Assembly: GCA_037442505.1 (NCBI GenBank)
Contig: JBBIPZ010000003.1
Span: 1 to 11,785 of the forward strand
DNA: 11,785 nucleotides
Origin: JBBIPZ01 sp037442505 [NCBI: Deltaproteobacteria bacterium]
GTDB lineage: Bacteria > CALINM01
Direction of reading: 5' to 3'
A model generated the notes under the pieces. It saw only the letters and a program-made list of their open reading frames with translations. It was not told the origin of the DNA and made no database searches. Position 1 is the first letter of the stretch, and each line of letters opens with the position of its first letter. Position numbers and translations under genes: made by a program. Positions 7,143 to 11,785 of the stretch are shown here, piece after piece.

Positions 7143-7219
7143 CGGGATGTAGCGCAGCTTGGTAGCGCACACGCTTGGGGTGCGTGTGGTCGTGGGTTCA
7201 AATCCCGCCATCCCGACCA
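7143..7219 (+). tRNA. tRNA-Pro (anticodon GGG)
   Basis: This is a full cloverleaf. Acceptor CGGGATG (7143-7149) pairs with CATCCCG (7209-7215), the D stem is GCGC/GCGC, and the anticodon stem is CACGC/GCGTG. The T stem is GTGGG/CCCGC around TTCAAAT. The loop TTGGGGT puts GGG at 7177-7179, followed by G at position 37, as expected for proline tRNAs reading CCC and CCU. The discriminator is A and CCA is encoded (7217-7219). It starts six bases after the merR stop, so it may be cotranscribed with the translation cluster and cut out by processing. Confidence 0.97.
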
Positions 7220-7247: not shown

Positions 7248-8162
7248 CTATTTTTGAGCCATTTCAAGATAAGCTATGGAAGATATTGCCGCTGTGCAGC
7301 CATCTCCTACAGCTGTTGCAATCTGTTTATATGGTTTCTTAACACAGTCGCCTGCTGCGAAAATCCAATTTACACTTGTCTGTCTGAATTCATTCGCCAG
7401 AATATAGCCATTTTCGTCGACTTCAACGATACCTTTTAACAAATCTGTTCTTGGCTTGTAACCAACAAATATAAACAGTCCTGATATGTCTAATACTTGT
7501 TCTTCTGTTGTCAAAACATCTCTGATAGTAATACCTGTCAGAAACTCATCACCGTGAAGTTTTGTAACAATTTTATTCCAGATAGGCTTAATCTTTTCGT
7601 TTCTCAGTGCCTTTTCCTGCAGATACTTCTCTGCTCTAAATTTATCTCTTCTATGTATAATATAAACAGTTTTGGCAAAGTTTGTTAGAAAAATAGCCTC
7701 CTCTATTGCTGTATTGCCTCCTCCCACTACAGCAACATCCTGCCCACGAAAAAAGGCACCATCACACGTTGCACAATAAGAAATCCCCTTACCTGTCAGT
7801 TCATTTTCCTTTTCTAAACCCAACTTCATTGGAGAAGCACCTGTTGCTAATATTAACACCTTACATATATATTCGTTCCTATCAGTAACAACTTTTTTGT
7901 TAGTCGTGTCAATATTCTTAATGCTTTCATACGATATTTCAGTACCAAAACGTTTAGCCTGTTTCTCCATCAAACTACCTAATTCTGGTCCCATTATACC
8001 TTCTGGAAAACCAGGATAGTTTTCAACATCTGTAGTGAAAACCATCTGGCCACCAACTGATTGTTCTTCTAAAACAAGTGTACTTAGCATAGCCCTTGAA
8101 CAATATATTGCGGCTGTTAAACCAGCAGGACCACCACCAATAATAATCACATCTTTTTCCAT
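7248..8162 (-). CDS. trxB: Thioredoxin reductase (NADPH, FAD)
   Basis: This flavoprotein passes electrons from NADPH to thioredoxin in the cytoplasm. The 304-residue length is typical of low-molecular-weight TrxB. The FAD-binding GGGPAG lies at residues 9-14, the redox-active CATC at 130-133 and the second dinucleotide fold GGGNTA at 147-152. HRRDKFRA (170-177) has the arginines expected to bind the NADPH 2'-phosphate, and a C-terminal FAAGDC motif contacts FAD. The start ATG has GAGGTGA a few bases upstream on the minus strand. It is the only minus-strand gene in the middle of the window, converging on tRNA-Pro with 28 bases between them and diverging from prmA. No thioredoxin gene is adjacent. 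A GGGNTA in place of the common GGGDSA is seen in some relatives. Confidence 0.95.
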   Translation of the reverse strand: MEKDVIIIGGGPAGLTAAIYCSRAMLSTLVLEEQSVGGQMVFTTDVENYPGFPEGIMGPELGSLMEKQAKRFGTEISYESIKNIDTTNKKVVTDRNEYICKVLILATGASPMKLGLEKENELTGKGISYCATCDGAFFRGQDVAVVGGGNTAIEEAIFLTNFAKTVYIIHRRDKFRAEKYLQEKALRNEKIKPIWNKIVTKLHGDEFLTGITIRDVLTTEEQVLDISGLFIFVGYKPRTDLLKGIVEVDENGYILANEFRQTSVNWIFAAGDCVKKPYKQIATAVGDGCTAAISSIAYLEMAQK

Positions 8163-9779: not shown

Positions 9780-10481
9780 GTGGGATTTTATACAGCCGTA
9801 GAAGAAATTCTAAAAAAACTCATCTATAAAATAAAAAATACGAAAAGGTTAGACCTGCTTTCTGAACTCGACTATACGGTCGTGGATTTAGAAACCACAG
9901 GTTTTAACTTGCCTCCAATCGACCGAATTATCGAGATAGGCGCAGTAAGAATAAAAAATCTCAAAATTGTAGATGAATTTTCCGTTCTCGTTAATCCTTT
10001 GAAACCAATCCCGCCTATAGCTACTGAAGTAACACATATAACTAACGATGACGTAAAAAAAGGTATTAAGATAGGAAAGGCGCTAAAAGAGTTTTTCAAA
10101 TTTTCAACTAATAGCATCATTGTTGCCTACAACGTCTCTTTTGACTATCAATTTATAACTGAGGCATCTCGTTATAGCATCGGTTATATTCCCCGAGAAA
10201 ACACATTGTGTGCATTTGAATTAGCAAAAAAGTTGTTTTATTTTATCGAACGATATGACCTTGATTATGTTTGTGAATATTTAAATATAACCATAGAAAA
10301 TAGACATCGTGCATTAGGTGATGCTATAGCCACTGCTAAACTGTTTCTTATTTTGATTGATTTACTTAAAAAGGTAGGTATAAATAGCTATAACGAAGCA
10401 AAGCTTTTTGAGCTTGGAAACACATTGCCAAAAGAAATAAGAAAGTTGTTAGAACACTACAGAAGATTAGGTATTATCTGA
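9780..10481 (+). CDS. DnaQ-family 3'-5' exonuclease (DNA polymerase III epsilon-like)
   Basis: This is a DEDDh exonuclease of the DnaQ/RNase T superfamily. In 233 residues all five catalytic positions are visible: D36 and E38 in DLETTG (ExoI), D122 in NVSFDYQF (ExoII), and H176 and D181 in HRALGDAIAT (ExoIII). ExoII reads AYN instead of the more usual AHN. There is a 30-residue helical N-terminal extension and a basic C-terminal tail. The start is GTG 9780, eight bases after AGGGGGAG (9764-9771). The overlapping ATG at 9778 opens a frame that stops after seven codons. It could be a replicative proofreading subunit or a stand-alone repair exonuclease, and sequence does not decide. It follows rsmE by one base and overlaps the next gene tail to tail by eight bases. 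Confidence 0.88.
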   Translation: MGFYTAVEEILKKLIYKIKNTKRLDLLSELDYTVVDLETTGFNLPPIDRIIEIGAVRIKNLKIVDEFSVLVNPLKPIPPIATEVTHITNDDVKKGIKIGKALKEFFKFSTNSIIVAYNVSFDYQFITEASRYSIGYIPRENTLCAFELAKKLFYFIERYDLDYVCEYLNITIENRHRALGDAIATAKLFLILIDLLKKVGINSYNEAKLFELGNTLPKEIRKLLEHYRRLGII

Positions 10482-11785
10482 TTAATTCTTCCGACTTTAT
10501 GGCATAGTATATCATCTTACGCCACAAAGTAACTCTACTATAGCCTAAAAGTTTAGATGCCTTAGTTTTGTCTAAGTCGCATTCTTTTAAAGCCTTTATG
10601 ATTCTTTCACGTTCTGCATTATGATCTTTTAGATGGTTATTTATATAAGCTGCGGCCCTGATTTCAAAAGGTAAATCTTCAGGTGTGATGTAACTTTTAC
10701 TGTCAGGCAACATAAAATAAACACTTTCAATAACATTCTTAAGTTCCCTAACATTACCTTTCCAATCGTAGCCTGTTAGAATTTCCAAAGCATCATTGGA
10801 AAAACCTACAACCTTCTTACTAAACTTCTCTCCATAAGAATTGATTAGTTCACGTAAAAAATGTTCTGCTAATAAAGGTATATCTTCCACTCTATCACGC
10901 AGAGGCGGTATGAACAGATGAAATGTATTCAATCTATAAAACAGTTCTTCTCTAAAATTGCCTTTTTTAGTCTCAGCCTTCAAATCTTTACTCGATGTTA
11001 AAATTAATAAAGCCTTATTTTTACGTGGTTCATTGCTTCCAACGCGACAAAAAGTGTTATCCTCCAATAACCGTAAAAGTTTTGACTGAAATGTTAATGA
11101 AGTTTCTGTAATTTCACTGAGCAAAACTGTTCCTTCTAAAGCTAACTCTAACTTGCCTTCCCTTTTAGAAGCGTTACTATTACCATTTTCATATCCAAAC
11201 AGCTCACTTTCTATAAAATTATCTGGAAATGCCGCACAATTAATTTTAATAAAAGGTTTTGATTCATTTCTCGATAGTTTATGTATTGTCGAAGCAACTA
11301 AATCTTTACCCACCCCACTCTCACCTGTTATTAAAACAGGCGATTGGGTAAGCGAGACAGCCTTAACAAACTCAATAACGTACTTTATCGCATCACTTTT
11401 TCCACAAATACCCATAAAGGATTTGTCAGATTTATTTGTACTGGGAAAACTAACGATATTTTTAATAAGAGCAATACCACCTAACAAATTTTCCTGATTA
11501 TCTTTAATTATTTTAAGTTTGGCTTTAACAATGACCGACTCACCATTTTTTCTAATAATTGTAGTTAAGGCTTCTTCAACATCGTGCCTTGTTTTTACAC
11601 AATAGTCAAAAGGACAGGAAAATTCTTCAGTAAAAGAGCAGATATTAGGACATGGCTGTCCGTAAATTTCTTCCTTTTTGAAACCGGTTATAGCCTCTGC
11701 TACCTTATTAAATTCTATTATTTTGAATGACTTATCAACTATTACCACACCATCACTAACTTCTTGCAACAACTCATTGTAAAAC
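10474..11785 (-). CDS. PAS-AAA+-Fis regulator of the NtrC type with degenerate sigma-54 activation motifs (5' end beyond window)
   Basis: Numbering is from an in-frame TTG at 11772, but the frame continues unbroken to the right edge with a PAS-like sequence, so the true start is probably outside. A PAS domain (about 1-105) carries four cysteines (41, 45, 53, 58). The AAA+ domain (about 118-345) keeps Walker A GESGVGKD (150-157), the arginine-finger segment FREELFYRL (273-281), PPLRDRVEDIPLL and sensor II GNVREL. A Fis-type helix-turn-helix ends the protein (about 387-425). Two key features are lost: the sigma-54 contact loop, normally GAFTGA, reads GNSNAS (197-202), and Walker B reads LLSE with S219 in place of aspartate. 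By family knowledge it should therefore be poor at hydrolysing ATP and at activating sigma-54. It may instead act as a sigma-70 regulator or repressor. Confidence 0.9.
   Translation of the reverse strand, partial: FYNELLQEVSDGVVIVDKSFKIIEFNKVAEAITGFKKEEIYGQPCPNICSFTEEFSCPFDYCVKTRHDVEEALTTIIRKNGESVIVKAKLKIIKDNQENLLGGIALIKNIVSFPSTNKSDKSFMGICGKSDAIKYVIEFVKAVSLTQSPVLITGESGVGKDLVASTIHKLSRNESKPFIKINCAAFPDNFIESELFGYENGNSNASKREGKLELALEGTVLLSEITETSLTFQSKLLRLLEDNTFCRVGSNEPRKNKALLILTSSKDLKAETKKGNFREELFYRLNTFHLFIPPLRDRVEDIPLLAEHFLRELINSYGEKFSKKVVGFSNDALEILTGYDWKGNVRELKNVIESVYFMLPDSKSYITPEDLPFEIRAAAYINNHLKDHNAERERIIKALKECDLDKTKASKLLGYSRVTLWRKMIYYAIKSEELIR

Follow-up and report, generated by a model that had tools for sequence, protein, structure and literature searches.

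The 11,785-nt stretch of DNA analysed here (the window) carries at one edge a gene for a bEBP whose AAA+ domain has jointly lost the GAFTGA motif, the Walker B Asp, the usual sensor I sequence and an otherwise invariant Arg, and has kept the residues that contact neighbouring subunits. We lean, with modest confidence, towards reading it as a PAS bEBP paralogue that left the sigma-54 pathway and would now work as a PAS-controlled, ATP-gated DNA-binding regulator, either at sigma-70 promoters or by repression. The gene, its elements and its immediate neighbour map as follows.

10474..11784, minus strand: degenerate bEBP gene with the order PAS, AAA+, lid, Fis-type helix-turn-helix (HTH); 436 aa readable, 5' end past the window edge
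11455..11757, minus strand: PAS sensor domain (PAS_9), residues 10-110 (Pfam, E 5.1e-14)
11599..11652, minus strand: PAS cysteine cluster C45, C49, C57, C62 (alignment; numbering counted from the translation)
Residues 126-290, minus strand: Sigma54_activat domain (PF00158; Pfam, E 2.2e-51)
11305..11325, minus strand: Walker A GESGVGK, intact (translation and alignment)
11167..11184, minus strand: L1 loop, GNSNAS where relatives have GAFTGA (translation and alignment)
11113..11133, minus strand: Walker B GTVLLSE, Asp replaced by Ser (residue 223), Glu224 intact (translation and alignment)
11008..11010, minus strand: residue 259, Leu in place of Arg (alignment)
10981..10998, minus strand: sensor I region TSSKDL, where most relatives have ATN(K/R)(D/N)L (translation and alignment)
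10930..10956, minus strand: arginine-finger segment FREELFYRL (R278, R284), intact (translation and alignment)
10648..10899, minus strand: AAA+ lid domain (AAA_lid_14), residues 296-379, including sensor II (Pfam, E 9.4e-23)
10741..10758, minus strand: sensor II GNVREL (translation)
10513..10617, minus strand: Fis-type helix-turn-helix (HTH_8), residues 390-424 (E 4.8e-10)
9780..10481, plus strand: RNase_T, DnaQ-like exonuclease, a convergent neighbour sharing 8 bp with the 3' end of the bEBP gene

The protein is read from a single open frame (window 11784-10477, minus strand, 436 aa) that is followed by a stop at 10474; because the window edge cuts the gene, its start codon and possible additional N-terminal domains lie out of view. 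Its matches to PF00158, the lid and HTH_8, together with the fold, place it in the sigma-54 activator/bEBP superfamily. An AlphaFold2 model built on 48 aligned sequences reached a mean pLDDT of 91.9, with 74 in the block of residues 201-210 that holds L1, and the top Foldseek match of this predicted fold was the NtrC1 AAA+ structure 1ny6 (TM 0.94 by target length, rmsd 1.3). No equivalog cut-off was reached with the NCBIfam models of PrdR (284.9 of 795), NtrC (TIGR01818; 224.6 of 558.6) and TyrR (201.7 of 576), and the score against the DhaR model was likewise far under its cut-off. Profile libraries nevertheless class the protein as a sigma-54 activator, though the defining feature of that class is missing.

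Translation and alignment bore out the original prediction at every sequence element it had named, that is, GNSNAS in place of GAFTGA, a Walker B strand without its Asp, the TSSKDL reading of sensor I, and the persistence of Walker A, the arginine fingers, sensor II and the Fis-type HTH, for which Pfam agreed. Conservation was scored over 120 aligned relatives, each covering the AAA+ core, after 38 rows had been dropped (the duplicates L081-L110 and partial matches); loci L162 and later are absent from this set, and the fragment L158 does not reach the loop. Leaving out four degenerate proteins encoded in tandem pairs yielded a canonical set of 116. A GAFT-type L1 motif with central Phe and Thr is absent from the window protein and occurs in 116 of the 120 relatives (75 GAFTGA exactly, 30 GAFTDA and 11 other near variants), its presence throughout the canonical set being partly by construction since the four degenerate proteins were left out. 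The loop is also short, spanning 12 residues from E199 to G210 versus 14 or 15 in the canonical relatives and 14 in the four degenerate ones. The predicted loss of the grip on sigma-54 is well supported by these two features of the sequence, a missing GAFTGA and a loop two residues short. As to Walker B, the window protein has Ser-Glu instead of the Asp-Glu pair, and the canonical relatives have Asp (112/116) or Thr (4/116) at the first position; in L059 the strand reads Asp-Asp, with the Asp retained. Residue 259, Leu here, is Arg in all 120 aligned relatives (116/116 canonical, 4/4 degenerate).

On the other side of the inventory, alignment showed that the Walker A Lys, the switch Asn182, Glu224, R278, R284, R298 and the sensor II R346 are all retained. 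So are E199, E213 and R247, at positions that vary among the relatives (kept in 72, 83 and 78 of the 116) and that match PspF E81, E97 and R131, described in the excerpts available to us as a switch coupling loop L1 to the nucleotide state (PMC2745333). The same excerpts led us to reject the idea that the lost Arg at 259 corresponds to PspF R131, as the pre-sensor-I RVGG starts at R131 and this residue is the window R247, which is kept (PMC2745333). The inventory as a whole indicates that the protein has lost the tip that contacts sigma-54, together with portions of its own catalytic site, and has kept what serves ring assembly and the contacts to a neighbour's ATP. By position along the PspF sequence, residue 259 would presumably be R143.

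The departure from the relatives is more than chance would give, and it centres on L1, Walker B, sensor I and R259. In the canonical set, 71 columns reach a conservation of at least 90%; of these the window protein breaks 14, canonical proteins 0-7 (median 2) and the four degenerate relatives 21-26. Breaks fell in 8 of the 11 columns that make up L1, Walker B, sensor I and R259 versus 6 of the 60 others (Fisher p = 3.6e-5, a value that is descriptive only because the functional columns were picked after the breaks had been seen). One clade of PAS bEBPs (L034, L036, L050, L061) shares the loss of the Walker B Asp, replaced there by Thr, but differs from the window protein in keeping GAFTGA, with 69 of the 71 conserved columns intact. 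The original argument from Walker B was therefore stronger than the data allow: the Asp is indeed lost, but its loss alone need not mean a dead machine.

That the gene is not a decayed pseudogene, as had been proposed, is well supported by the open frame and by codon usage. Its codon score (0.209) lies within the range of ten other window genes, which also formed the reference (0.132-0.314), and remains normal in each of five gene segments (0.14-0.254), on both sides of the loop. The two shifted frames score -0.023 and 0.119, and the latter value, near that of the lowest real gene, makes the test only moderately sharp. A frame-shift artefact was rejected on these grounds, the frame being open and codon usage normal around the loop; a single error cannot give 14 scattered changes. 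The end branch leading to the protein is long, with 2.13 changes per column in the larger of two quick trees and 2.03 in a careful tree.

Relatives are numerous and distant. A scan of genome contigs returned at least 202 relatives, from which the best 80 of 202 were kept; the two top-scoring among the matches listed, from Stygiobacter electus and an Aminicenantes bacterium, share 38 and 39% identity with the window protein over almost the full length, and some matches listed reach 43-45% over the AAA+ part. In a sample of 395 genomes with four candidates scored per genome, 28 had a match at E <= 1e-78, those listed being 35-41% identical, and a second sample gave a match at E 1e-80 in one of ten genomes. 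No match appeared at 1e-83 in 55 genomes (up to 31 candidates scored) or in six genomes (all candidates scored), nor at 1e-80 in 80 genomes (up to 21 candidates scored). These samples overlap in part, and the thresholds were set to show only relatives as close as the best known, or closer. Among the matches listed, none exceeded 41% identity in the genome sample or 45% in the contig search, and a close orthologue was not found in either. The sigma-54 family PF04552 was detected in all 12 genomes examined from related groups, in G255 by a partial match only, at the first bases of its contig. As markers for placing the organism, ThrS (best match 67%) and PheT (best 41%) both led to the phylum of the genome that carries L006, by our inference Desulfobacterota, and no single class stood out as its home; against 38 genomes from which relatives' loci had come, ThrS reached 59% at best.

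As judged from the alignment, the PAS domain of the window protein resembles a cysteine-bearing subfamily that is common among its sigma-54-type relatives. A three-cysteine pattern occurs in 39 of the 54 PAS-aligned relatives; the window protein has four cysteines at another spacing. Canonical Cys-PAS bEBPs from the phylum of L006, whose genome record is Deltaproteobacteria bacterium GWC2_42_11, share with it the domain order and a PAS cysteine cluster at about 33-41% identity (G255, G067 and G350, plus G208, G048 and G122), but unlike it they keep GAFT(G/D)A, the Walker B DE, the invariant Arg and sensor I. In the last three of these genomes (loci L192, L193 and L194) the canonical Cys-PAS bEBP gene lies directly behind a thioredoxin-reductase-like (trxB-like) gene, with genes for DUF5320 and Mrp/NUBPL-type ATPases further along; these families were assigned by profile scans on the G208 copies only, and by similarity in G048 and G122. 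A trxB-like match was seen in 3 of 190 loci, the flanks being short in many of them. Such an arrangement calls to mind the D. vulgaris orp locus, described in the sections available as lying under the bEBP DVU2106 with its GAFTDA motif (PMC4641369, PMC3897727). In the window itself, a thioredoxin reductase gene (trxB) occupies 7248-8162; we claim no operon link between it and the bEBP gene, because 2.3 kb and three genes of the opposite strand lie between the two. We take the orp genes to include Mrp-like ATPases.

The original prediction also held that the protein may be a nucleotide-bound switch acting on sigma-70 promoters or a repressor, which is plausible in that precedents exist, as far as the consulted parts of the two sources go (PMC10274813, PMC3162934). 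GAFTGA-less bEBPs acting at sigma-70 promoters include R. capsulatus NtrC, VpsR (spelt VspR there) and Caulobacter NtrC, with differing nucleotide requirements in the passages available: ATP binding but not hydrolysis is essential for the first, ATP is not needed by the second, and the third, which lacks GAFTGA, still depends on residues of both Walker A and Walker B (PMC10274813). TyrR, DhaR and HupR are further examples in the excerpted text of a survey that counted 4850 true and 121 putative activators and about 110 homologues with minor motif deviations, and in which changes of the GAFTGA Phe or Thr are said to reduce or mostly abolish activity (PMC3162934). Judging from these partial accounts, R. 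capsulatus NtrC and HupR, Caulobacter NtrC, TyrR, DhaR and VpsR are like the window protein in having GAFTGA lost or altered; Caulobacter NtrC differs in keeping the Walker B Asp (D235), which is Ser here. NtrC has a receiver instead of a PAS domain as its input.

It is on these published GAFTGA-less bEBPs at sigma-70 promoters, with their varied ATP needs as given in the portions seen, that our preference for an ATP-gated regulator outside the sigma-54 pathway is founded. Under such a mechanism, the PAS domain with its cysteine cluster would sense a signal, possibly redox or a ligand, and would control a nucleotide-dependent assembly of the AAA+ domain, making the oligomer the putative switch. 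ATP is probably still bound, given that the Walker A Lys, the Walker B Glu and the sensor II Arg are kept, and may be held without useful hydrolysis, which is probably weak because of the Walker B Asp-to-Ser and sensor I changes. With the arginine fingers intact, neighbouring subunits would probably still be engaged, in a ring that, without GAFTGA, would be expected to be unable to grip sigma-54. The Fis-type HTH would then supply the output by binding DNA, either at sigma-70 promoters or to repress. The sigma-54 promoter pattern has one match in the window versus 0.94 expected. If the protein is functional, it shows that GAFTGA, the Walker B Asp and an otherwise invariant Arg are dispensable after leaving sigma-54, with the fingers and sensor II kept. 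A few bEBPs without sigma-54 contact are known, but the joint losses seen here look unusual. In a partial literature search we met no description of a joint loss of GAFTGA, the Walker B Asp, sensor I and the invariant Arg with the neighbour-contacting residues kept, a statement about the texts retrieved that makes no claim of absence from print.

GAFTGA-less bEBPs were also found in a different setting. In 6 of 395 genomes of the phylum sample (G175, G077, G146, G115, G079, G039), a lower bound because three candidates were scored per genome, such a gene lies directly behind a canonical bEBP gene on the same strand. These tandem pairs, the two genes of each sharing one strand, are located as follows.

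L138, 3140-5884: tandem pair
L157, 4689-7433: tandem pair
L143, 4138-7204: tandem pair
L154, 2131-5110: tandem pair
L166 and L167: one tandem pair each

The six genomes make it plain that, in this part of the tree, a blank bEBP repeatedly sits next to a working one, and the pairs offer a genetically simple place for testing natural mixing of bEBP rings. Walker B reads DE in the second bEBP of G175, G077 and G146, EG in that of G115 and G079, and DG in that of G039, a gene cut by the end of the stretch examined; a family scan found no PAS domain in the degenerate copy of G077, and one is present in that of G115. The G175/G077/G146 and G115/G079 types form one clade in the larger quick tree and in the careful tree. 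Behind the pair, five of the loci (L138, L157, L166, L143 and L154) encode a membrane subunit resembling NarI/DsrM and an iron-sulfur protein resembling DsrK; family scans covered the L157 copies, which score under their NCBIfam cut-offs (48 of 300, and 358.8 of 400), and the others were assigned by similarity only. The paired degenerate bEBPs are like the window protein in combining a GAFTGA-less AAA+ domain with a Fis HTH. However, the four that were aligned lack three residues that the window protein has kept, namely the finger Arg at R284, the switch Asn and the Arg of sensor II, and they retain the Arg lost at window residue 259 and a full-length loop. On account of those three residues, the two are not of the same design. 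Nor was their grouping stable: the window protein joined the paired proteins in one quick tree and stood alone in the larger one (both contained it twice), and it again stood alone in the careful tree, which contained it once and was built without the trait columns; forcing it together with the paired proteins was not rejected there (AU p 0.25).

These pairs bear on an explanation that the original prediction had not raised and that we consider possible, if doubtful, namely that the window protein is a non-catalytic partner subunit that enters mixed rings with a canonical PAS bEBP, lends its fingers and a second sensor, and tunes or blocks the partner, which is perhaps encoded upstream past the window edge, or elsewhere. 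The retention of trans-acting arginine fingers after GAFTGA and the Walker B Asp have gone would fit such a role, as do the tandem arrangements in six genomes and, in the parts seen of the relevant papers, the hetero-hexamers documented for HrpR/HrpS and suggested for VnfA1 together with VnfA3 or VnfA2 (PMC7057263, PMC9542535). Against it, no partner is visible within the window, the paired degenerate proteins differ in design, and their grouping with the window protein is unstable. A more specific form, which we judge improbable, is that of a natural blank bEBP subunit that slots into rings of canonical Cys-PAS bEBPs. The parts for its own catalysis and for gripping sigma-54 (GAFTGA, the Walker B Asp and sensor I) would be off, and it would retain both fingers, which act on a neighbour, as well as the residues that couple L1 to the nucleotide. 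If true, such a subunit would set the number of sigma-54-gripping subunits and would give one activator a second sensory input.

Gene decay after a recent loss of function would account for the 14 broken conserved positions and the long end branch, but seems very unlikely to us in view of a frame of 436 codons that has stayed open with the nearest relatives about 60% diverged, of normal codon usage in five segments and of breaks that cluster in one functional set while the fold, the fingers and the HTH are kept. We judge least likely of all that the protein continues to activate sigma-54 by way of an unorthodox L1 loop. The ring machinery is largely kept, including the counterparts of the PspF switch residues as they appear in the excerpts (PMC2745333), and a D. 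vulgaris bEBP with the motif GVATGV is predicted to be functional in the part of the report available (PMC4641369). Here, however, the loop lacks both Phe and Thr and is shorter by two residues, and changes of either residue cut or mostly abolish activity in the sections of the survey seen (PMC3162934).

Elsewhere in the window, a tRNA-Pro (GGG) gene lies at 7143-7219, between a MerR-like gene and trxB. The ThrS gene (153-1961), a short way past a tRNA-Val gene (54-127), appears to begin within the usual TGS domain, and four ThrS matches listed for one class likewise come without the N-terminal part.
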